Positions 7,580 to 32,379 of a stretch of 33,249 nt of DNA are shown here, piece by piece; the first letter of the stretch is position 1, and the number at the start of each line of letters is the position of its first letter. Origin of the DNA: Ferruginibacter sp. (GTDB lineage: Bacteria; Bacteroidota; Bacteroidia; Chitinophagales; Chitinophagaceae); the NCBI GenBank assembly GCA_030655145.1, contig JAURWD010000278.1:1-33249 (forward strand), written 5' to 3'. The notes beneath the pieces are model-generated. The model made no database searches, was not told where the DNA came from, and worked only from the letters and a program-made list of their open reading frames with translations. Position numbers and translations under genes: made by a program.

Positions 7580-8530
7580 TCATTTCACAGGTGTGGGTAT
7601 GCGCAATTCCTTTTTAAAAAAATTCCAGGCTTCCAGGTATACGTCAATATCCTTCGGGTAATCGTGTTTCCCGTTATTTACGGTCAATAATTCCACTGAA
7701 GGTTTTCCCCTTTTTCGGTAACTGCTGCGTACGATGGTTTTTCCGTCGGTAGGGTCTACGTCTGGTAACAAAGTTGTTTTGGGTTTGCCCTTGTATCCCG
7801 CGAGTTGTGCCCAGTATTTGAAAGTAGCTTCTGTGGATCTAACGGTGCCGAGGCGTGCGCCCGTAACTTTTACTTCACCTCCGTTGAAAGGATTTACCGG
7901 GTCATCCGTTCCGTTGATGATCATAACCGGAACCGGGATCCCGCTGGCGACACAATCCATGTTTGCGGAATCCGGAAGGTTAGCAACGATCGCGGCGATC
8001 GCGGAAATTTTCCCGGGCATAGTCAGCGCCAGTTTGTAGGCCATATGACCCCCTCCTGACATTCCTGTTGCAAATACGTGCCGTTCATTTACCTCGTAAC
8101 GCCGGCTAAAATAATGGATCATTGAATCAAAAAACGCGGCTTCATTTACATTTTCCTGGTTGGCGGCGGAGGTTGCTACCAGGCGGCATTCGTTCCAGTA
8201 TTTTTTGTACCCGTCCGGATAAACGATGAGCAAATTCTCGCGCTCACTCATCGCCTCAATTTTGGCAGCGCCGTTAATCATCTGCCGGCCGTTCCCTCCC
8301 GAACCATGCATGATGAAAAACAGGCTTCTTCCCGCAGACGGGCTGGCAGATTTGTTGAAATGAAAGCTCCGATAATTTCCTTCGATCAATACGGAATCGC
8401 TTATCAGCTGCGCCTGGCTGACGTGACTGGTTATCGTTACTCCTATCATCATCACGAATGTTGGCGCTGAGAATCGTTTCAGAAGTTTATGCATTCCTGT
8501 AAAATAATTCATGTTGCGATCATTGGTCAT
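7580..8530 (-). CDS. Secreted PHB-depolymerase/feruloyl-esterase-type alpha/beta hydrolase
   Basis: 316 residues. A signal peptide lies near the N-terminus, with the hydrophobic core at residues 22-40 and cleavage probably after SQAQ; the ATG at 8530 gives a long n-region, and in-frame ATGs at 8512 and 8494 are possible. The fold signature is complete: oxyanion segment HGSGGNG (75-81), nucleophile elbow GMSGGGHM with S158, acid in NGTDDPVNPFNGG (D209 or D210), and histidine in NNGKHDYP (H289). This matches the esterase/LpqC family (esterase_PHB), whose members cleave polyhydroxybutyrate or feruloyl and acetyl esters on plant polysaccharides. The exact ester is not predictable. It is divergent from the membrane protein/HTH pair and shares its operator-bearing promoter region. 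Confidence 0.87.
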   Translation of the reverse strand: MTNDRNMNYFTGMHKLLKRFSAPTFVMMIGVTITSHVSQAQLISDSVLIEGNYRSFHFNKSASPSAGRSLFFIMHGSGGNGRQMINGAAKIEAMSERENLLIVYPDGYKKYWNECRLVATSAANQENVNEAAFFDSMIHYFSRRYEVNERHVFATGMSGGGHMAYKLALTMPGKISAIAAIVANLPDSANMDCVASGIPVPVMIINGTDDPVNPFNGGEVKVTGARLGTVRSTEATFKYWAQLAGYKGKPKTTLLPDVDPTDGKTIVRSSYRKRGKPSVELLTVNNGKHDYPKDIDVYLEAWNFFKKELRIPTPVK

Positions 8531-10752: not shown

Positions 10753-13700
10753 TTACGCGGGTGCTACGGTTTGTAGTTTCCCGGCACTGCTCAATTTAAC
10801 CTGGTGGGTGACCTTATCATTGACCATGTGGAGTACATTGCCTTCCATTTGCACTCCATCCATGGTGATCTTTGTCTCCGTGCCATTTTCAGGCGTAGCC
10901 GTAACCACTTCGATCTGGTACATCGTATCATGGAAACGGTAGCTAATCTTAACCATTGGCCATTCTGCCGGCGTACAAGGTAGAAATTGTAAAGTATCGC
11001 CGATTCGTTTTAATCCAATAAATGATTCTATCAGCAACTGGTACATCCAGCCGGCTGACCCGGTATACCAGGTCCACCCGCCACGTCCTTTGTGTAGCGT
11101 TTGTCCATATACATCTGCGGCAATCACATACGGCTCTACCTTGTATTGAGAAGTGTCACCCGGGTTATCTCCGTGGTTTATTGGATTGATCATCTTGATG
11201 AGTTCCCAGGTTTTCTCGCGGTCGCCCATGGTTGCAAAGGCCATTACCAGCCACACCGCAGCATGTGTATATTGACCACCGTTCTCTCGTACACCGGGCA
11301 CATAGCCTTTTATATAACCCGGGTTCAGAGCCGACTTGTCAAAAGGTGGATCGAACAACTGGATGATCTCATCTTCTTTCCGAACCAGGTATTTATGCGC
11401 CGATGCCATGGCTGTTTTTGTGCGGGAAGCTTCGCCGGCTTTTGATAGAACCGACCAACTTTGAGCAATAGAATCGATCTTACATTCTTCGTTTTCTTTC
11501 GACCCGAGCGGGGTGCCATCATCAAAATACGCCCGGCGATACCATTCACCGTCCCAGGCATTTTTCTCTATATTCAGGCGGAGCTGTTCGGCAGCATCCC
11601 GGCATTTTTTCTCGACGGCTGCGTCTGCTTTTCCAACCGCCACATCCGCAAATTTCACCAGCACATCATACAGGAAGAAGGCCAGCCACACACTTTCACC
11701 TTTGCCATGTTCACCCACCTTATCCATGCCATCATTCCAGTCACCGGATCCGATGAACGGCAAGCCATGCACGCCGAATTTCAGCGCATGATTTATCGCC
11801 GTAACGCAGTGTTCGTACAAGGTTGCTTTTGTTTCCGATTGAACCGGCAGGTCGTAGAAGGATTCCTCACCGGGGTTCAGCAAGCGGCCTTCAATGTAGT
11901 GCACTTCTTCATCGAGGATTCCACTGTCGCCGGTTGTGATCACGTACCTGCTGGCTGCAAAGGGCAACCACAGGTAATCATCCGAACAGGTGGTACGAAC
12001 GCCGCGTCCTAATGGCGGATGCCACCAGTGTTGTACATCCCCCTCGCGGAACTGGCGCGAAGCGTGGAGCAGGATTTGTTGCCGCACCATCTTCGGCCGT
12101 GTATGAAGAAGTGACAAAGAATCCTGTAGCTGGTCGCGGAACCCGAAAGCACCACCAGATTGGTAGAAGCCACTGCGGGCCCAGATACGACAGGCAATGG
12201 TTTGATAAGTTAACCAACCATTGGCCAGGATATTTACTGCCGGATCGGGGGTTTCGATCTGCACGTTCGACATTACCTCGCCCCAGAACTGGTTCACTTT
12301 TTTGATCGCCTGCTGCGCCGCGCCACTTCCTTCAAATCGTTCAATTACTTCGAGCGCTTCCTGCATTGTTTTTCCCGCCCCCAGGCGGAAAATTACCTGG
12401 TGCTCCTCGTCTTCGGCGAGATCAAAAGCCACCTGCAGGGCGGCACATGGATCAAGCGCCGCGCCTATCTTTCCGGAAAGCCTTGTTTTGCTCATACATT
12501 CCGGGTTGGCCAGGGTTCCGTTACGTCCTATGAATTCCAGCCTATCGCAGGTAAAGGACTTGTTTGGATCGTCTACGTCAAAAAATGCAACCCGACCCGT
12601 GAACTCTGTATTGTATGCATTCGACGCGAGGATAGCCCCTGTTGCGGGATCCAGCTCCGTAGTGATATGCATTTGTGAACGCGAGCGTAAATCACCCAGG
12701 ATCCACTCCACATAACCGGTTGCTGATATTCTCCGCATGCGGTTGCTCGTATTTCGAACTTTTAGCGTGATGAATTTTACCGGGTTGTCCACGTCCACGA
12801 ACATGCTCATTTCCGAATGGATCCCATCTTCACTATGTTCGAAAATGCTGTATCCAAAACCGTGTCGGGTTATGTACGGCGAGTTTCCTTTAACCGGCAA
12901 AGGCGCCGGCGACCAGAAGCGCCCGCTTTCTTCATCCCGCAGGTAAAACGCTTCTCCCTTCAGGTCATTGATGGGATCGTTGTTCCAGGGAGTGAGCCTG
13001 TATTCGTGCGCATTTTCCAGCCAGGTGTATGACTGTCCATTTTCGGAAATTATACAACCAAAGTCGGGGTTTGCGAGCACGTTGATCCAGGGCGCCGGTG
13101 TGGATTTGGTTGGTGTTGTTACAATCACATATTCTTTACCGTCGGCAGAAAATCCACCCAGGCCATTAAAGAACCTGAGATCGGTCCGGGGTTTTACTTC
13201 TGTAAAAACAGAAGAGTGAAATTTTGTTGGATTGAACATCGGGATCGGCGACTTCAAGCGCGTGCGGCGATTGAGTTGTTCCTCGAGAGTTCCTAACCTG
13301 TCTGACAAAACGATGTGTGCCACCGTTTGGAACAGGATGCGATCTTCCGCAGAGATCTGTTCCGCTGAACGGATGAAAATACCGCCTGGTTGGTCTTTTA
13401 CATCAGACATAGCAGGTGTGATCAGCCCCAGGATCTGGTTATTCAAATCTGCCCTGTAACCGCCACGATCTTCGTTCCAGATCACCAGGTCCATACTGAT
13501 ACCTTTCAGGCGCCAGTAGTAATGTGCCTGCACCATCTGTTTCACCAGGTCTATGTTCGCTGAATCTTCTATCAACAATAACACGATCGGCAGATCTCCC
13601 GAAATTGAATAGCCCCAAAGCCCCGACTGGCCACGGCGGTTTTTTATAATGATGCCGGGATCGGCGCGAAGTGCCGGGTTGGTGAATATGACGGAAGATG

Positions 13701-16700
13701 ACAATTTCGCGTACAGTTGCGCATCCGCTTCGGTCGCATTTATCTGGCGCACGATGAGTTGACTGTGTGTCCAGGCTAATTCGAGTACGCGACGGGTGAG
13801 TTGACGATCCTGGTATTTCTCAATTAGGCTGGTGCAGATCTCTTTATTTTCCGCCATCCCAGTAATAATGTCAACAATGGCCGTTTCGCCGGCGTCAATG
13901 ACGATGCGATACTGGATGGAAACAATTGGATCAAGCACAGAACCCTGCGTACCCGAAAGCGGCGCTTCCTGCGACAAGGCCGTGGGGTGTTGCAACGTGT
14001 AACCTCTTCCAATAAAGTTGGCGCGACTGGTTTCGTAAGAAATATTTTTAACCTCCGTGTCGTGCACCTTCATCAGGTGAAACATCCACGGCATTTTTTC
14101 TTCCTGTGACCGCGGGCGGCGCGTGCAGGTAATGGCATGGCGTTGCTGGTTAATTTCTGTTTGAACAAACAGGTTGCTAAACGCAGGATGCACTTCATCG
14201 GCCAATGCCGCTGCCATAACTACCTCGGAATAACTCGTGACCTCGATCACGCGTTTGCGCCGGCTGCGGTTAGTAATATGAATTCTTCTTAATTCAATGT
14301 CATCTTCAGGTGAAACAACGATCTCGGTATGCGTGTCGAGGGACATATCCCGGCGACGGAACTCAGCCCTTCCCTGGGAAAATACCGCTTCATAATTTTC
14401 TCCCGCCTGTAAGGTCGGGTGATAAGAATTAGACCAGAGCGCATTATTATCGAGATCGCGGATATAACAGAAAGAACCCCAGTTATCGCAGGTTGCATCC
14501 TCTCTCCACCTTGTAACTGCGAGGTTTCTCCAACGGCTGTAACCACCGCCACCATTCGTAACCATCACATGGTAGCGCCCGTTCGACAACAGTTCCACTT
14601 CCGGTAAAGGAGTATGTGGCGTGTTGATTACCCGCATAGAACTGTCAGCGTATGGCGTAGACGCGATGTCTTCAGCATGAACGCTTGGTGAGTAGAAGGT
14701 TGCAACTCTTGGTACTTTCTCCTGCAGTAACAGCAACGTGGATTTTATTTCAACATCGGCTTCAAACAATTTTTGCATTGGCTGGTCGAGTAACAAATAG
14801 GCCAGCGAAAGGAAACTCATACCCTGGTGATGCACCATGAAGGATTTAACCGTAGCATAAGTTTGTTTTCGCACCATCCGCGATGGGGTGTAATCGATCG
14901 CTTCATAAAAACCGTACTTGCTTTCAAAGCCACTCTCCCGAAGGTCCTGCAGGTTTTCATAGGCTTCATCCGGAGCAACCATGAGCGCCATGATGGTAGA
15001 GTACGGCGAGATCACCAGGTCTTCACTCAAACCTCTTTTAAAACCAAGACCCGGCACACCAAAGGCGCGGTACTGGTAATTGAGGTTGGTGTCAACCATA
15101 TTGTAGCCAGACTCCGATATACCCCAGGGCACATTTCTTTTTCGTGCATAATCGATCTGCTTTTGAATGATGGCCTTGTACGTTTGATCCAATAGCGTGT
15201 TATCGTAATTTGGCATCACGAGCAATGGCATCAGGTATTCAAACATCGATCCGCTCCAGGAAAGCAGGATCGGGCTGGTGCCGAGATTAGTCAGTTGGCG
15301 TCCTAATGCAAACCAACTTTCCTGTGGTAATTTACCTTGTGAAATGGCCACGAAAGTGGTAAGCCGAGCTTCCGACGCAAGAAGATCATAAAAACTGTTA
15401 TCACGCCGTTGCTCTTCCACATTGAAACCAATGGACAACAGATGTTGGCTGCGGTCGTAGAGAAAATCATATTCCAGGTCTGCGAGTTCCGTCGCTTTGA
15501 TCACAAGCTGATCGGCAGTTAATACAATTTCTTTTGCACGCCTCGCTGCTTCGGTGATGCGTTCGCGGAAGTTATTGAGCCACAGATTTTCTTCCGGGGC
15601 ATTGCCGGGAGCGTAACAGTTGATCAAACTATGGAGGATGGTTTCCTCGATCTTGGTCAATTGCCGGGTAGTCGGCACCAATGGCAACATTGGTATGAGG
15701 TGTTCAAATTTGGTAGGCGCTTCGGGAAGGTCGAGCCAGGGAACCATCACCAATAATTCTTCTTTTACATTTCGTACCTGGTCAATTAGTTTTTGTAACC
15801 ACCAGCTGCTTTCCGGCGGTTCGTTCTCCTCCAGGTCATCTTGCAAAATATCCAGCGCTTCTTCAAATTGATCTATTTGAACCTTTGTTTCTTCGAGGGT
15901 AAGTTGTTGGTTGCCGCGGAGCGCTTCGATGGATTGTATTATTTTTTCAAGCTGCTCTTTATGCGTGCAATATTCAGCAAGCACGCCGAGGCCGTCTGCA
16001 AACCCATCAAACATGGCAGGATTAACAATCCTTTTATCTGGTACAGTAATAAGTGCCTGCTTTAAGGTTACGAGGTGACCGGCCAGGTTTCCGCTGTCCA
16101 CGGTTGAGATGTATCTTGGTCGTAAAGGAACCAGCGAAATGGTGTCGTACCAGTTATAAAGATGACCGCGGAAACGCTCCATCCGCATCATGCTGTCGAT
16201 GGTATTGCGGGTCCGTTCGATCATCTGGCCGGCACCGATGTAGCCAAATTCAAAGGCTGTTACATTCGCCAGCAATGAAAGCCCAATATTCGTTGGAGAT
16301 GTTCTATGTGCGATGCGCTCGACCGGGTCTTCCTGGTAATTATCTGGCGGCAGCCAATTATCTTCTTCCCCTACAAAGGTTTCAAAGAAAGCCCAGATCT
16401 TGCGGGAGAGTTTACGGAGGTAGGCAATTTCATTGGACGCTAATTGCACCCGCTTGGTTTCAAAAGAATGGCTTGCCCACCATACCAGCATTGGGGATAT
16501 CAACCAAAGAATTAATATCGGCAAGGCAATCAACAAACTGATCGGTGCATACAACGACAAATAGATAAACAGCGCTATTGAAAGAAAGGGTGAGAACCAC
16601 ATGGTTTTATAAGAACTTACCACGGTTTCTTCTTCGGCCCCATGCCCATACGGATTCCATTGTAACAAATTTTTACGCGTAATGAACATTCGCCACAGCG

Positions 16701-19602
16701 TGCGGAGGATGGCGTCAATATTCGTAAAAGCTTCGAAGGGCAGACAGGTCAGGTCCAGCAAGTGTTGGATAAAATTGGTCGTTGCGGATTTAAGCGAGAA
16801 ACTTAAATGCTGTCGGAAGGTTTCATCAGCGGGTTTCCAAAACAACTCCCAGATAAAATTTACTACCGAAGGCATCACGATGATCAGGGTGATCACGAGT
16901 GTCCAAAACCACGGAACTGGCGACAGGATCCAACCATATAAAAACAGCAATAACAAAGCGATGGGCACAAGGCTGCGACGCATGTTATCGAATATCTTCC
17001 AGCGACTAAAAAGCGAGATGGGATTTTTACGGAACCCCTTTGTTGCACCCGGCACGAAGGGTAATGTCCAGGAAGCGATTTGCCAGTCGCCCCTGATCCA
17101 GCGGTGACGGCGCTTCATATCTGTCAGGTATCGGGCGGGATATTCTTCATACAGCTGTACATCGGAGATGAGGCCAGAACGGGCATAACATCCTTCCAGT
17201 AAATCATGACTTAAAATTCGATTGGCTGGAAATTTATTTTCCAGCGCAAGCTCAAAAGCATCGATGTCATAGATGCCCTTACCGATGAAGGAACCTTCTT
17301 TGAAAAGATCCTGGTAAACATCTGAAGTTGCACGGGTGTAAGGATCGGTGCCGGGTTCATTACCATGAATGCGGGCATACAGCGAACTGTTACCCTGTGG
17401 CATACTGTTAGACACCCTCGGTTGCAGGATTGAATATCCCTCTGTAACACGGCCTTTTTTAGGATCATAAAACGCGACATTCAAAGGATGCGCAAGTGTA
17501 CCGACCATTTGCCAGGCTGTATCCCTGGGAAGCTGGGTATCGGTGTCAAGGGTGATGACATATTTTATTGAAGTGTAAATGGCTTCCTCTCCAACGATAA
17601 GTGAAAAGTTTTCTTTTGCCTTTCCCCGTACGAGTTCATTGAACTCCTGCAGTTTCCCACGCTTTCTTTCATAACCCATCCATACTTTTTCTTTCGGGTT
17701 CCATTTACGTGGCCGATGAAACAGCAGGAATATACTGTTCGTATTGTGACCGTACTTGCGATTCAACTCGATCACCTTCCGGCGGGCGGCATCCAGGATC
17801 GGCTCGTCGCCAGCAGTAGTTTCCGTTGCGGCATCTTTGAAATCAGTTAACAGGGCGAAACAAACATTCCTGTCACGGTTTGCTAAAAATCTTACTTCTA
17901 AACTCTCTAACAGATCGTCAATGCCGCTTACGCTGGTTAACAGCGTAGGGATAACCACCATGGTGCGATATTCATCTGGTATGCCCTTGGAAAAATCCAT
18001 TCGTGGCAACAAGTGCGGCCGGGAAAGAATGGTGCTGACCCAGTTGACGAGAGACAGTGCCAGGCGGCTGGTAGCGATAACGATTACAATCAGCAGCGCT
18101 GCGAGCAAATATTTGTGTAGTCCTTCGGAGAAGGCTCTCGCAAATAAGCCCCAGCACATCAAGGCTGTGAGGAGTGCAAATCCACCAAGGTATACACCGA
18201 GCGGATTATTGTTCGCGATGTTGCGGGTATATTCGGCCCTGGTAACTTTAGAGTGCGCTTCTTTTTTAACCAGCGCAAACCCTTCGCAGGTAAGATAGTA
18301 GCCAACATGCTGGAACCGCTGTTCCATATTTTTTTCCCGGGCTTCCTGCGCAAAGCGCATAGCCAGCTCCGCGATCTCCTTTTCCGAAAGCTCACTACGT
18401 TTTGCGATCTTTTCAACCGAATGACGGTAGTTATCGCGGGTATGAAAATCCATGCGGCTATAAACATCATCAATGTCCTGCCGCAGTATTTTTTCAACGA
18501 CACTCGTGTTCTCCACGAAGTCGCGCCAGTCGGTGGTACTTAAAAAACGAAGACTGCTAATGCTGTTGCTGATAGATACCTGGTCAGCGGCCTGCTTTTG
18601 GTTTTCGAGTTGGATCAATTCGCTGCTGGTGGATCCGTTCTCCGATAAGCGCTGTTCAATCCAGTTTAACGGCAAGGTAACCGAGCTCCCTTTTTCCTGC
18701 AGGCGCCGCGATAATTCCGCTACGAAAGAACTTTCCATGGGGGGATCGGAACGGGCCATATCGGCGATGACCAACACCAGGTTTTTTGGATCTTTCTCAA
18801 CAACCTCCAGCATTTCATCGGCCCATTGCCCGGCTAACATTTTGTTGTTGATATCGATGGCGATCTGGATGGAAATACGTCGCAGGTTTTCAATCAACGC
18901 CAGGCGCAACATGATCGGTATGGCCCACAGTTCGCCGAGTTTTAGGGCGGTTTCACTTTGATAAGCGTTTACAAAACTTACCAGGCTGTTTATATCGACA
19001 TGACCGTCGCTGTGGGAAATAATTTCTACAGCAAGGTCGTAAACCCTCGGTAGGCCGGCAGACTTTCCTTTTGCGAGCTGCGGCAATCCCCTGCTATATC
19101 CCTTTGGTAAATGCTTCTTACCGGTATATATCTGTTCTTCAATAAGATAAAAATTATCAAGGAGCCATTCACCTGCTGGAGCGATGCGATTATTTTCTTT
19201 TACCGCTTCGGTCAACAATGCGTGAACCTCGAGGAGAATTTTTTCATTCTCATCGAGGCGTTTCAATAATTGCTCGGAGGGATGCTCTGAGATCAGCAGG
19301 TGGCGGGCCGCAAGGCCTTTGGCATGCTGTTCCAACTGTTCTTCTGTAAATAATTCGGAACGAAGCGGGGGACGCTCGTCTGCATATTTTTCATTCCAGT
19401 TGTCGCCAAAAATAGGCTCGATAATATTTTTCTTAAAAGATGTTATTGCCTGCGGAAGCATTTCAAAGATTTCCTTCGGCCTGTTTTTTCTTTGATCTGC
19501 TTTCATTCGTCTCGGTATTTGTTTTTCAAAAAATTGCTTGTAGGATAAAAACTTCTCCTGGATTGAAGAAGTATCTATGCCAATACTATACCTGTTTAAC
19601 AC
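10753..19602 (-). CDS. ndvB: Giant cyclic beta-1,2-glucan synthase-type protein (GT84 + glucoamylase-like + GH94)
   Basis: 2949 residues, close to the ~2800-2870 of rhizobial/Brucella NdvB/ChvB/Cgs. In order: a large N-terminal region; membrane helices at ~467-527; a family-84 glycosyltransferase domain with TLDTDTQLPRD (~686), a later acidic site in LSHDLLEG and the RHRWIRGDWQ motif (~832); further helices at ~877-920 and ~1007-1040; a glucoamylase-like domain with SWSGSMFEYLMP and GISESGYN (~1420-1590); then two GH94-N-like domains (from ~1667 and ~2167) and the GH94 catalytic domain with SGDWNDGMD (~2622). In known members a protein-linked UDP-glucose-derived chain is extended, length-controlled and cyclised at the inner membrane. 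The start is GTG with AGGA five bases upstream; ATG 19506 is an alternative. No ring-exporter (ndvA/cgt) gene is visible nearby. Confidence 0.88.
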   Translation of the reverse strand: MLNRYSIGIDTSSIQEKFLSYKQFFEKQIPRRMKADQRKNRPKEIFEMLPQAITSFKKNIIEPIFGDNWNEKYADERPPLRSELFTEEQLEQHAKGLAARHLLISEHPSEQLLKRLDENEKILLEVHALLTEAVKENNRIAPAGEWLLDNFYLIEEQIYTGKKHLPKGYSRGLPQLAKGKSAGLPRVYDLAVEIISHSDGHVDINSLVSFVNAYQSETALKLGELWAIPIMLRLALIENLRRISIQIAIDINNKMLAGQWADEMLEVVEKDPKNLVLVIADMARSDPPMESSFVAELSRRLQEKGSSVTLPLNWIEQRLSENGSTSSELIQLENQKQAADQVSISNSISSLRFLSTTDWRDFVENTSVVEKILRQDIDDVYSRMDFHTRDNYRHSVEKIAKRSELSEKEIAELAMRFAQEAREKNMEQRFQHVGYYLTCEGFALVKKEAHSKVTRAEYTRNIANNNPLGVYLGGFALLTALMCWGLFARAFSEGLHKYLLAALLIVIVIATSRLALSLVNWVSTILSRPHLLPRMDFSKGIPDEYRTMVVIPTLLTSVSGIDDLLESLEVRFLANRDRNVCFALLTDFKDAATETTAGDEPILDAARRKVIELNRKYGHNTNSIFLLFHRPRKWNPKEKVWMGYERKRGKLQEFNELVRGKAKENFSLIVGEEAIYTSIKYVITLDTDTQLPRDTAWQMVGTLAHPLNVAFYDPKKGRVTEGYSILQPRVSNSMPQGNSSLYARIHGNEPGTDPYTRATSDVYQDLFKEGSFIGKGIYDIDAFELALENKFPANRILSHDLLEGCYARSGLISDVQLYEEYPARYLTDMKRRHRWIRGDWQIASWTLPFVPGATKGFRKNPISLFSRWKIFDNMRRSLVPIALLLLFLYGWILSPVPWFWTLVITLIIVMPSVVNFIWELFWKPADETFRQHLSFSLKSATTNFIQHLLDLTCLPFEAFTNIDAILRTLWRMFITRKNLLQWNPYGHGAEEETVVSSYKTMWFSPFLSIALFIYLSLYAPISLLIALPILILWLISPMLVWWASHSFETKRVQLASNEIAYLRKLSRKIWAFFETFVGEEDNWLPPDNYQEDPVERIAHRTSPTNIGLSLLANVTAFEFGYIGAGQMIERTRNTIDSMMRMERFRGHLYNWYDTISLVPLRPRYISTVDSGNLAGHLVTLKQALITVPDKRIVNPAMFDGFADGLGVLAEYCTHKEQLEKIIQSIEALRGNQQLTLEETKVQIDQFEEALDILQDDLEENEPPESSWWLQKLIDQVRNVKEELLVMVPWLDLPEAPTKFEHLIPMLPLVPTTRQLTKIEETILHSLINCYAPGNAPEENLWLNNFRERITEAARRAKEIVLTADQLVIKATELADLEYDFLYDRSQHLLSIGFNVEEQRRDNSFYDLLASEARLTTFVAISQGKLPQESWFALGRQLTNLGTSPILLSWSGSMFEYLMPLLVMPNYDNTLLDQTYKAIIQKQIDYARKRNVPWGISESGYNMVDTNLNYQYRAFGVPGLGFKRGLSEDLVISPYSTIMALMVAPDEAYENLQDLRESGFESKYGFYEAIDYTPSRMVRKQTYATVKSFMVHHQGMSFLSLAYLLLDQPMQKLFEADVEIKSTLLLLQEKVPRVATFYSPSVHAEDIASTPYADSSMRVINTPHTPLPEVELLSNGRYHVMVTNGGGGYSRWRNLAVTRWREDATCDNWGSFCYIRDLDNNALWSNSYHPTLQAGENYEAVFSQGRAEFRRRDMSLDTHTEIVVSPEDDIELRRIHITNRSRRKRVIEVTSYSEVVMAAALADEVHPAFSNLFVQTEINQQRHAITCTRRPRSQEEKMPWMFHLMKVHDTEVKNISYETSRANFIGRGYTLQHPTALSQEAPLSGTQGSVLDPIVSIQYRIVIDAGETAIVDIITGMAENKEICTSLIEKYQDRQLTRRVLELAWTHSQLIVRQINATEADAQLYAKLSSSVIFTNPALRADPGIIIKNRRGQSGLWGYSISGDLPIVLLLIEDSANIDLVKQMVQAHYYWRLKGISMDLVIWNEDRGGYRADLNNQILGLITPAMSDVKDQPGGIFIRSAEQISAEDRILFQTVAHIVLSDRLGTLEEQLNRRTRLKSPIPMFNPTKFHSSVFTEVKPRTDLRFFNGLGGFSADGKEYVIVTTPTKSTPAPWINVLANPDFGCIISENGQSYTWLENAHEYRLTPWNNDPINDLKGEAFYLRDEESGRFWSPAPLPVKGNSPYITRHGFGYSIFEHSEDGIHSEMSMFVDVDNPVKFITLKVRNTSNRMRRISATGYVEWILGDLRSRSQMHITTELDPATGAILASNAYNTEFTGRVAFFDVDDPNKSFTCDRLEFIGRNGTLANPECMSKTRLSGKIGAALDPCAALQVAFDLAEDEEHQVIFRLGAGKTMQEALEVIERFEGSGAAQQAIKKVNQFWGEVMSNVQIETPDPAVNILANGWLTYQTIACRIWARSGFYQSGGAFGFRDQLQDSLSLLHTRPKMVRQQILLHASRQFREGDVQHWWHPPLGRGVRTTCSDDYLWLPFAASRYVITTGDSGILDEEVHYIEGRLLNPGEESFYDLPVQSETKATLYEHCVTAINHALKFGVHGLPFIGSGDWNDGMDKVGEHGKGESVWLAFFLYDVLVKFADVAVGKADAAVEKKCRDAAEQLRLNIEKNAWDGEWYRRAYFDDGTPLGSKENEECKIDSIAQSWSVLSKAGEASRTKTAMASAHKYLVRKEDEIIQLFDPPFDKSALNPGYIKGYVPGVRENGGQYTHAAVWLVMAFATMGDREKTWELIKMINPINHGDNPGDTSQYKVEPYVIAADVYGQTLHKGRGGWTWYTGSAGWMYQLLIESFIGLKRIGDTLQFLPCTPAEWPMVKISYRFHDTMYQIEVVTATPENGTETKITMDGVQMEGNVLHMVNDKVTHQVKLSSAGKLQTVAPA

Positions 19603-23057: not shown

Positions 23058-23103
23058 AAAAAAAAACTTCCACAACTACTGGTTTTTCATAGTGTGTGGA
23101 AGT
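23058..23103 (-). terminator. Terminator of RNA copy 1
   Basis: Read on the minus strand, CTTCCACA (23102-23095) and TGTGGAAG (23074-23067) pair, with an inner ACTAT/GTAGT stem (one T-G wobble) and a conserved apical TATGAAAAACC. Nine T follow. The loop sequence is retained in the other two copies, so this hairpin may do more than terminate. Confidence 0.8.
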
Positions 23104-23207
23104 GATCAACTGCGAACCTTTTTGGGGTTCTAAGGGATTTAAGGATGAGGTACTTACCTCTCCGGAAAAATGAATAATCCCGGTTTCATGTGTTTGTTGG
23201 TTTTTTC

Positions 23208-23287
23208 GCCATCATCGCTTCTTACGGCATAGGCAAGGATATTGGGTAATTGGTTTTTGGTCATCATCGCTGGTAAAAGCATAGACC
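23208..23287 (-). repeat. Two stem-loop modules of RNA copy 1
   Basis: Modules at 23259-23287 and 23208-23234, 51 bp apart, each preceded on the minus strand by CCAATATCC. The inner segments TATGC and GCGATGAT are invariant, while the outer stems change together (GGTC/GACC against GCC/GGC). Confidence 0.7.
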
Positions 23288-23373
23288 GGATATTGGTTGT
23301 TTGGTGTTCTGTAGGATTTGGATCTGGATAGAAACTGATTGAGAAACTTCGTTTGATCAATTAATTTCTGATA

Positions 23374-23508
23374 CAAAGATGCACCCGATTACAATCGTAG
23401 ACAAGAGCAATACCGCTCTATTTTGCCGATGGAAAAATTGCTGTGCAATTGGTGTAGTTACGCTATTTCACCCACGGTAAACTACGCGTTCATTCGGCGT
23501 ACAATTAC
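23374..23508 (-). promoter_or_regulatory. Promoter and upstream block of RNA copy 1
   Basis: On the minus strand: CATCTTTG (-7 type, 23381-23374) and TTG (23404-23402) separated by 20 bp; an overlapping inverted repeat AGAGC-N6-GCTCT (23404-23419); and a distal block with TACAATTAC (plus-strand sense, 23500-23508), CATTCG and GTAAACTACG (23477-23486). All of these parts are found at nearly the same spacings in the other two copies. Confidence 0.65.
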
Positions 23509-23793
23509 TTTTTTCAACGGGAATATAAAACCAGCACCCGAGTTTTCTTTAAAATCAGCGCTGGAAGCAGCAGATGCCACTTACGCAATCCCGAAAGAAA
23601 ACACCTGGAAATGTTCCCGTTTGCAATAGGCATCAGTGTTAGGCACGGGCGATTTGCACCGTGCTTAAAGATCACAACAATCATTTGATACCAGGAAAAA
23701 TTTAGCAGTCCCAGCAGTGGCTTCGCCTCACCAGAAGTATTGTTGGGCGAGGTTGAATAAGATGAAAGAAATCCCGGCGAGGGGGGAGAAAGC

Positions 23794-24056
23794 AAAACTC
23801 CCACAGCGCTACGGTTTTTCATAGTCTGTGAGAGTAAGATTTTTAGAACCAACTTGCGTCAGGTCTGTTCAGGATCGAATTCAAGCATTTAGGATTTGCC
23901 TAGCCAGGAAGTATTCATGTTTTCCTCCCGTCTACATTTTTGGTTTTGGATCATCATCGCTTTTAAAGGCATAGATCCGGACATTGGAAACTGGTCGTTT
24001 TTTGGATTTGGATGGATTTGAATCGAATTTGGTTGACTATGCTTTTCAACCATTTT
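23794..24056 (-). ncRNA. Candidate ncRNA, copy 2 (one stem-loop module)
   Basis: A putative ~260-nt minus-strand transcript that starts just downstream of the six-PAS kinase gene. It has one module (23948-23978, outer arms GGATC/GATCC) preceded by an A/C-rich stretch and CCAATGTCC. It ends at a long hairpin with arms CTCTCACAG and CTGTGGGAG (23834-23798, one wobble), with TATGAAAAACC in the apical loop but only four T after it, so termination may be weaker. A 5' frame beginning ATGGTTGAAAAG resembles the ATGAATGAAAAG of copy 3, but the frame runs through the module in a different register. The 285 bp between this locus and copy 1 (23509-23793) hold only a GCACGG/CCGTGC hairpin near 23643-23665. 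Confidence 0.55.
23948..23978 (-). repeat. Stem-loop module of RNA copy 2
   Basis: A single 31-base module with perfect GGATC/GATCC outer arms. It is almost identical to the 80-bp-spaced modules of copy 3, 8 kb away. Confidence 0.7.
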
Positions 24057-24062
24057 CTGATA

Positions 24063-24195
24063 CAAAGATGCAAGGTTAATCCATGCCCGCAAAGAGCAGA
24101 ATTGCCCTTTTTGCACCTTGTTGTAAATACGGCCACCATCGTAATACTGCTGGCAATTACCAAGTAAACTACGTGACCGGCATTCGTATAATTAC
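24063..24195 (-). promoter_or_regulatory. Promoter and upstream block of RNA copy 2
   Basis: On the minus strand: CATCTTTG (24070-24063) and TTG (24092-24090) with a 19-bp spacer; the inverted repeat AGAGC-N6-GCCCT in plus-strand sense (24093-24108), with one mismatch; and a distal block GTAAACTACG (24164-24173), CATTCG (24181-24186) and TATAATTAC (24187-24195). The distal block ends 14 bp before the kinase stop codon. Confidence 0.6.
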
Positions 24196-31696: not shown

Positions 31697-31743
31697 AAAA
31701 GAAAAACTTCCACAGCTATTGGTCTTTCATAGCCTGTGGAAGT
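31697..31743 (-). terminator. Terminator of RNA copy 3
   Basis: Read on the minus strand, CTTCCACAG (31742-31734) pairs with CTGTGGAAG (31715-31707), with an inner GCTAT/ATAGC stem and apical TATGAAAGACC, followed by TTTTTCTTTT. Against copy 1 the inner stem differs at positions that remain paired. Confidence 0.82.
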
Positions 31744-31840
31744 AAGTTTTTGTTGAACTCTTGTGAAGTTCGTGGGATCATTAATTTTGAGACTTTCGTC
31801 TCCCAGAATTCGTTCCTGGTTTCAGTGTGTTCGGTCTTTT

Positions 31841-32160
31841 GCCATCATCGCTGTGAAGCATAGGCTAGGATATTGAGTTTGGTCTTTTTGGGTTATCATC
31901 GCTTTTGAAAGCATAAACCCGGATACTGGTTTTTTTTGGTCTTCTTTAGGATTAGGATCGTTGGTTTTTGGATCATCATCGCTTTTAAAGGCATAGATCC
32001 GGACATTGGTTTTTTTGGTTTTCTCTAGGTTTTGGATTCTTGGTTTTTTGGATCATCATCGCTTTTGAAGGCATAGATCCGGACATTGGTTTTTTTGGTC
32101 TTCTTTAGGTTTTGGATTCTTGGTTTTTTGGATCATCATCGCTTTTGAAGGCATAGACCC
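31841..32160 (-). repeat. Five tandem stem-loop modules of RNA copy 3
   Basis: Modules at 32130-32160, 32050-32080, 31970-32000, 31890-31920 and 31841-31865. The first four start exactly 80 bp apart. Outer arms, minus strand: GGGTC/GATCC, GGATC/GATCC (twice), GGGTT/AACCC, GCC/GGC. The inner TATGC and GCGATGAT are kept except for natural pairing changes. Each is preceded by CCARTRTCC or a close variant and followed by AAAAACCAA-like sequence. Confidence 0.78.
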
Positions 32161-32246
32161 GGACATTGGTTTTTTTTGGCTTTTGGTAGGGTTTGGATTT
32201 ATTTAAGAATTTGAGTGACGATATCTTTTCATTCATTTTCTTAACA

Positions 32247-32379
32247 CAAAGATGCAGCAGTGACGGTTCTCTGACAAGAGCGTTATTGCTCTTTTTAGCC
32301 GATAGAGTAAATACTGACGCGAGCGTAACATCTGCGTTTTACCCGCGGAGATCTACGTAAGATCCACTCGTACAAGTAC
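32247..32379 (-). promoter_or_regulatory. Promoter and upstream block of RNA copy 3
   Basis: On the minus strand: CATCTTTG (32254-32247), a 20-bp spacer and TTG (32277-32275); the inverted repeat AGAGC-N6-GCTCT (32277-32292); and the distal block with CTACG (32353-32357), ACTCG (32366-32370) and TACAAGTAC (32371-32379). The last element is 94 bp from the TTG, against 96 and 95 bp in copies 1 and 2. Confidence 0.62.

Follow-up and report, generated by a model that had tools for sequence, protein, structure and literature searches.

Three loci on the minus strand of a 33,249 nt stretch of DNA (the window) from the genus Ferruginibacter (Chitinophagaceae) look like genes for noncoding RNAs that carry different numbers of the same hairpin module. 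This raises the question of what such RNAs bind. A sequence-only reading had described the loci as RNA-like, with two, one and five modules, and a covariance model of the module, which finds eight modules in the window, confirmed this. The genes and their parts, with the basis of each assignment in brackets, are the following:

31697..32246, minus strand: RNA copy 3 with five modules, predicted transcript of about 550 nt (promoter, modules and terminator in the sequence)
23784..24062, minus strand: RNA copy 2 with one module, predicted transcript of about 279 nt (sequence)
23058..23373, minus strand: RNA copy 1 with two modules, predicted transcript of about 316 nt (sequence)
32247..32291, minus strand: operator and promoter of copy 3, GAGC-N6-GCTCT...CATCTTTG (operator-pattern search of the own genome)
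24063..24107, minus strand: operator (imperfect, GGGC-N6-GCTCT) and promoter of copy 2 (operator-pattern search)
23374..23418, minus strand: operator and promoter of copy 1 (operator-pattern search)
32292..32379, minus strand: distal upstream block of copy 3, TTACG...GTATTTAC (matching blocks in a consensus of 59 upstream regions)
32203..32244, minus strand: short 5' hairpin of copy 3, taken as a shortened form of the 5' domain of the family (inverted repeat I1)
32122..32169, minus strand: copy 3, module 1 (match to the module model, R1)
32042..32089, minus strand: copy 3, module 2 (R1 match)
31962..32009, minus strand: copy 3, module 3 (R1 match)
31882..31929, minus strand: copy 3, module 4 (R1 match)
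31831..31876, minus strand: copy 3, module 5 (R1 match)
23940..23987, minus strand: copy 2, single module (R1 match)
23250..23297, minus strand: copy 1, module 1 (R1 match)
23198..23245, minus strand: copy 1, module 2 (R1 match)

The control elements named in the earlier reading were largely recovered. The promoter CATCTTTG was found in all three copies, the terminator loop CTATGAAA(A/G)ACC was kept in all three, and the distal upstream block is real, since TTACGAT and GTAAATACCGA are prominent in a column consensus built from 59 distinct upstream regions of the family. The inverted repeat AGAGC-N6-GCTCT was exact in copies 1 and 3 only, while copy 2 reads AGGGC-N6-GCTCT. Besides the two distal elements the consensus comprises GAGC-N5-TGCTCTTG and TAnnTTTG. 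GCTCTTG occurred in 37 of the 59 regions (0.2 in shuffled sequences), the operator palindrome in 30 (0.17) and GTAAATAC or GTAATTAC in 21 (0.3). The promoter spacer of a second paralogue (upstream of L173, L183, L200 and L202) contains TTATCCACA, which resembles a DnaA box, and several further upstream regions contain TGTGGATA. A regular expression for the terminator loop, applied to loci L001-L041, matched only L017 outside the own genome, such that the loop is not general; a near variant is present in F. paludis, whose strain CECT 8366 carries an RNA of this family at L113. The own genome holds at least five copies, i.e. the three of the window and two on contig C337 that have promoter, tail and terminator as in the window copies and degenerate modules. 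When folded as whole transcripts, copy 3 was more stable than its shuffles (z of -3.2), and copies 1 and 2 folded little better than theirs (z of -1.7 and -1.4). The window further contains a 2949-aa open frame at 10753-19602.

The module itself is a real RNA structure. Among 142 distinct modules found by the model, 163 stem cells carried a double change compared to 71 in shuffles, a value reached in 0 of 500 shuffles. In a set of 68 modules picked by regular expression the outer stem covaried with 92 double-changed cells (shuffled mean 33, 0 of 500). The covariation score of the module was likewise reached by none of 500 shuffles; two cruder measures, i.e. how many pairs show a double change and how many pair types occur, were no higher than in the shuffles in either module set. 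Across the 142 modules two inner G-C pairs were invariant and the internal loop UAU/GAUGAU nearly so. The motif CCAAURUCC occurred 2, 1 and 3 times in copies 1, 2 and 3 against an expectation of 0.01 each. The modules follow one another at spacings of 80, 56 and 58 nt, mostly no multiple of three, which breaks any reading frame; we therefore read them as noncoding, and a coding repeat is ruled out. Module numbers can be higher elsewhere: locus L088 has seven, and L099 has eight or more.

How far do these RNAs extend beyond the window? A scan of genome contigs with the module pattern returned 46 stretches, 45 of them in an RNA context; the remaining one, from Rhodobacteraceae, was a chance match in coding sequence. 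Of the 45 stretches, 35 are labelled Ferruginibacter or Chitinophagaceae and the others carry wider or different labels, among them one module-bearing MAG labelled Streptomyces that is probably mislabelled. The module model had matches in 12 of 396 searched genomes of the order (Ferruginibacter 10, two borderline); three of the listed Ferruginibacter genomes had none. A model of the 5' domain reached much further: with strict filters throughout, it matched 104 of the 294 Chitinophagaceae genomes searched, and these matches cover 38 of 101 genera. From a sample of 345 genomes of the phylum it returned 6, all of them Chitinophagaceae. In this domain a long-range stem of 15 bp shares one arm with a local hairpin. 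Within the Ferruginibacter set neither showed covariation above shuffles (30 and 469 of 500 reach it), because these sequences are almost uniform. In 60 sequences from across genera the long stem was 97.7% paired and had 6 double-changed cells compared to 0.8 (0 of 500). The first 48 nt paired at least 5 nt of the shared arm in 58 of the 60 sequences, with a z below -1.5 in 42. The 5'-domain model scored the window copies poorly (best E of 4.9) since their 5' end is shortened, and they are tied to the family through further Ferruginibacter genes in which the 5' domain and the modules occur together. The two C337 copies (L012 and L190, at the conserved locus) have kept the 5' domain and have degenerate modules; the dispersed window copies have kept the modules and have a shortened 5' domain.

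At the conserved locus a cystathionine beta-synthase gene lies before the RNA and a BtuF-like gene after it, in several genera. The corresponding clusters were present in 28 and 20 of 46 sequences and, in a second set, in 17 and 15 of 39; Pfam confirmed both neighbours in L172 and on C337 of the own genome. A second neighbourhood is common to 7 of 34 flank loci, in all seven of which the RNA is divergent from a gene for a LuxR-type response regulator, which Pfam confirmed for six of them. As for the window copies, these are dispersed paralogues that lie next to genes for two histidine kinases and one response regulator. The claim that no known RNA family is involved agrees with a scan of the window against Rfam 15, which gave no match. 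For seven relatives searched at E<=1 three matches were obtained, all far below the gathering score and none credible. Among the matches listed in a search of open PMC papers we found no published description of such an RNA in Chitinophagaceae, and the main text of PMC11109978 (50 bacterial genomes) does not mention Chitinophaga, Niastella or Bacteroid-.

A candidate for the partner came from the repeats of the long RNAs, to which we refer in the following as putative decoys. A comparison that covered 22 of 33 putative decoys, drawn from 46 strong matches of the 5'-domain type (R2), showed RUCC boxes to be enriched (ATCCAA 72 times compared to 10.5), and their spacing peaks at 7 nt. A pattern derived from these repeats found nine identical 20-mers in the own genome, and the control found 0. 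On the opposite strand, the nine matches are short, unannotated genes of about 60 nt (L213-L221) with the layout GGUUUUUCAUAGGAUAUUGGA, A/U-rich stretch, terminator hairpin and U-rich end. The 5' end of this sRNA is GGUUUUUCAUAGGAUAUUGGAUUUU. Its first 21 nt form an invariant seed while the terminator arms differ between the nine copies. In every copy the 3' part folds as the terminator hairpin and the 5' end pairs only weakly, in agreement with a multicopy sRNA made of a 5' seed and a terminator. Upstream, TAnnTTTG was seen by eye as an exact match in 2 of 9 copies and as a near match in some of the remaining ones. None of the loci matched Rfam at E<=1. The operator pattern had 6 matches in the own genome, 4 of them at members of the long RNA family, compared to 4 for the reversed-pattern control; another match (C109:530-574) lies about 70 nt upstream of the sRNA copy at C109:644-663, which given this control may be chance.

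The same sRNA occurs in genus g36 (genome G105), where it starts at 8224 of L176 on the minus strand, 284 nt upstream of a putative decoy that starts at 7940 on the same strand. Related sRNA-like genes with a different 3' part of the seed were found in g51 and in the Ferruginibacter genome G253. In 400-kb samples, G253 and G620 contained related sRNA-like genes, and G039, G018 and G105 contained no convincing copy (G105 has the seed in L176). A second seed variant, TTTTTCATAGGATAAGGTTTAAT with a T-rich end, is present in two genera (L295 of G253 and L328 of G620).

The putative decoys are complementary to the sRNA. Both the terminator loop CUAUGAAAAACC and the repeat unit CCAAURUCC-[hairpin]-AAAACC match the complement of its 5' end. 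In Ferruginibacter the two half-sites flank the hairpin, with CCAAURUCC matching nt 12-20 of the sRNA and (G)AAAAACC matching nt 1-7. In the window the following sites illustrate this:

31721..31732, minus strand: terminator loop of copy 3, CUAUGAAAGACC, pairs with sRNA nt 1-12 with one G-U (complementarity)
23813..23824, minus strand: terminator loop of copy 2, CUAUGAAAAACC, complement of sRNA nt 1-12 (complementarity)
23081..23092, minus strand: terminator loop of copy 1, CUAUGAAAAACC, complement of sRNA nt 1-12 (complementarity)
32081..32089, minus strand: example of a 5' half-site, CCAAUGUCC, pairs with sRNA nt 12-20 with one G-U (unpaired probability 0.70)
32042..32048, minus strand: example of a 3' half-site, AAAAACC, pairs with the sRNA 5' end GGUUUUU (unpaired probability 0.98)

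The five putative decoys of the own genome contained 30 complementary runs of at least 8 nt. Permuted seeds gave 6.5 on average and none of 100 reached 30, though on such an A-rich target single permutations went up to 29. The runs were distributed as 4, 4 and 10 over copies 1, 2 and 3 and as 7 and 5 over C337a and C337b, numbers that were reached by 2, 7, 1, 0 and 4 of 150 Markov samples, respectively; copy 2 is thus weak when taken alone. The full comparison covered 33 putative decoys, i.e. 28 from outside Ferruginibacter (some from one genome) and five from Ferruginibacter. The 28 had 104 runs of at least 9 nt where 13.8 were expected and all 28 lay above their own Markov mean, compared to 1 run for the antisense strand and to a mean of 9 (maximum 30) for 40 permuted seeds. 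The five had 15 runs compared to 2.8. Half-sites were mostly predicted to be unpaired. Cofolding a module with the sRNA retained the hairpin with both half-sites paired at a predicted -18.3 kcal/mol, and a C337 stretch gave -19.2 kcal/mol. For the terminator-loop site the predicted net interaction was only -2.7 kcal/mol, because the hairpin must open. Pairing of this kind would fit regulation in either direction, and both RNAs could also be copying one common mRNA leader.

Sugar uptake in Bacteroides is regulated by the sRNAs FopS and GibS, and FopS sRNAs bind near start codons, according to excerpts of PMC11697453 and PMC7366714. The partner sRNA resembles FopS/GibS of Bacteroides thetaiotaomicron, as portrayed there, in its 5' seed and terminator and in occurring both as many dispersed copies and on viral contigs. 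Its seed, GUUUUUCAUAG..UAUU.GAUUU, is similar to that of FopS: compared by eye with the R1' consensus GTGTTTTTCATAGTATTAGATTTAAGGTTAACAAA (excerpt of PMC11697453), it has GTTTTTCATAG, TATT and GATTT in common, which suggests common descent. Different from FopS with its 14 members, in the excerpted account, the sRNA has nine copies, and the window RNAs are its counterpart rather than members of it. These excerpts describe neither an RNA that restrains FopS/GibS nor a dedicated decoy.

Viral contigs were searched with a seed pattern, and 11 matched. In five of them (L239, L242, L244, L247 and L245; seeds at L245:5815, L239:6115, L242:10831 and L247:5894) the seed is followed by a clear terminator, and three of these five contigs are longer than 200 kb. 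A further four (L241, L243, L246 and L248) carry the seed with a different downstream sequence that includes a T-run, and the last two matches look like chance. Searching phage records with the sRNA gave 31 weak matches, the best 30 of which had an E of 0.7 or worse. A virus-borne decoy was rejected: the module pattern matched 14 viral contigs that all represent one coding context, and the 5'-domain pattern matched 13, none of which showed decoy flanks by eye.

On these sequence grounds we consider it probable that the three loci belong to a Chitinophagaceae family of long, mostly unstructured decoys for multicopy sRNAs of the FopS type. Our confidence is lowered by sRNA variants elsewhere (in G253 and L328) that lack the UUGG part pairing with CCAAURUCC. 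On activation of its dedicated promoter, a single decoy transcript would hold several sRNAs. Each sRNA would close around the base of a hairpin to form a three-way junction, or alternatively be held by the terminator loop. The hairpin itself is probably not the sponge site, because the complementary half-sites sit on both its sides. By analogy with FopS the sRNA, whose 5' end is anti-CUAUGAAAAACC, would repress mRNAs at their start codons; its seed looks anti-start-codon since CUAUGAAAAACC contains AUG-AAA-AAC. The decoy would relieve this repression, and copy number together with module number would set its capacity.

The direction of regulation might also be reversed, such that regulation is exerted by the nine sRNAs and the long RNA is an effector that they fold, stabilize or destroy, with the hairpins binding a protein. 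The near-invariant internal loop UAUGC...GCGAUGAU of the 142 modules does look like a protein or tertiary contact. In addition, most putative decoys have the 5' site AAAAUCCAAUAUC, in full or in a shortened or slightly altered version, at a position that overlaps the 3' arm of the long stem, through which an sRNA could switch the 5' fold. However, the RNAs of other genera have retained the complementary sites, and detection of the hairpin by the module model is nearly confined to Ferruginibacter. This makes the sites the more general part, and we regard this direction as unlikely. Slightly less probable still is a protein sponge, in which an RNA-binding protein, e.g. an RRM protein or Rho, would be taken up by the A/C-rich RUCC repeats. 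The own genome encodes two small RRM proteins with Gly-rich tails, and the putative decoys combine more C than G with YC repeats, as rut sites do in the excerpt of PMC9160355. Yet the RUCC-AAN-RUCC motif is already explained by complementarity to the sRNA seed, and its spacing peak of 7 nt differs from the 9-13 of the rut descriptors in that excerpt. Moreover, RbpB of B. theta is reported to bind GUAGGAUA, which resembles the sRNA, and not a UCCUGUGC probe (excerpt of PMC12119571); this target is close to AUAGGAUA in the sRNA seed.

A mobile or functionless neutral repeat could account for several copies per genome, tandem as well as dispersed. It is very improbable given the conserved promoter, the covarying module stem and the same position between the cystathionine beta-synthase and BtuF-like genes in several genera; no transposase was seen among the identified neighbour genes, for which a minority of neighbours was searched. 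The sequence-only reading had proposed an RNA that binds several copies of a partner in the way of CsrB, and it rightly left open whether this partner is a protein or an RNA. The multi-site form is supported, and the likeness to CsrB is confined to the mode of action. A CsrB/RsmZ-type sponge for CsrA, suggested by the modular RNA with its dedicated palindromic operator and by the divergent LuxR-type regulator gene at seven loci, has practically no chance of being correct, as both its defining features are refuted: ANGGA occurs 0, 0 and 0 times in copies 1, 2 and 3 (GGA 3, 4 and 5 times, not above shuffles), and CsrA (PF02599) is absent from the own genome but was detected in the controls E. 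coli, B. subtilis and T. maritima.

The proposed decoy differs from known systems mainly in its build. SroC and ChbBC, which also work by pairing with and titrating an sRNA, are fragments of mRNAs or operons with one or few sites; the window RNAs come from independent genes of one family, which have a promoter of their own and carry hairpin modules in tandem. In the plant target mimic IPS1 the site is likewise split by an insert, a bulge, whereas the insert in the window RNAs is a conserved structured hairpin. With CsrB and RsmX/Y/Z, as far as the excerpt of PMC2375449 describes them, the RNAs have in common several copies of a binding unit, an operator and multiple gene copies, but not the GGA sites for CsrA/RsmA. 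Bacteroides, the best-studied genus of the phylum, is reported in the excerpt of PMC12119571 to be without Hfq, ProQ and CsrA.

Overall, the long RNA probably soaks up a small RNA and thereby controls a gene network, as judged from the complementarity. A complete RNA-only titration circuit in Chitinophagaceae is a more tentative proposal, to which we give slightly less than an even chance. It would set promoter-driven tandem decoys with split sites against a multicopy anti-start-codon sRNA, using three-way junctions and a terminator loop that mimics a start codon, and viral sRNA copies may act on the network. An RNA decoy whose site is split by a hairpin would be geometrically unusual. If the proposal is true, a dedicated, family-wide and expandable decoy and its seed-matched partner in one genome would provide a ready test system for RNA titration.
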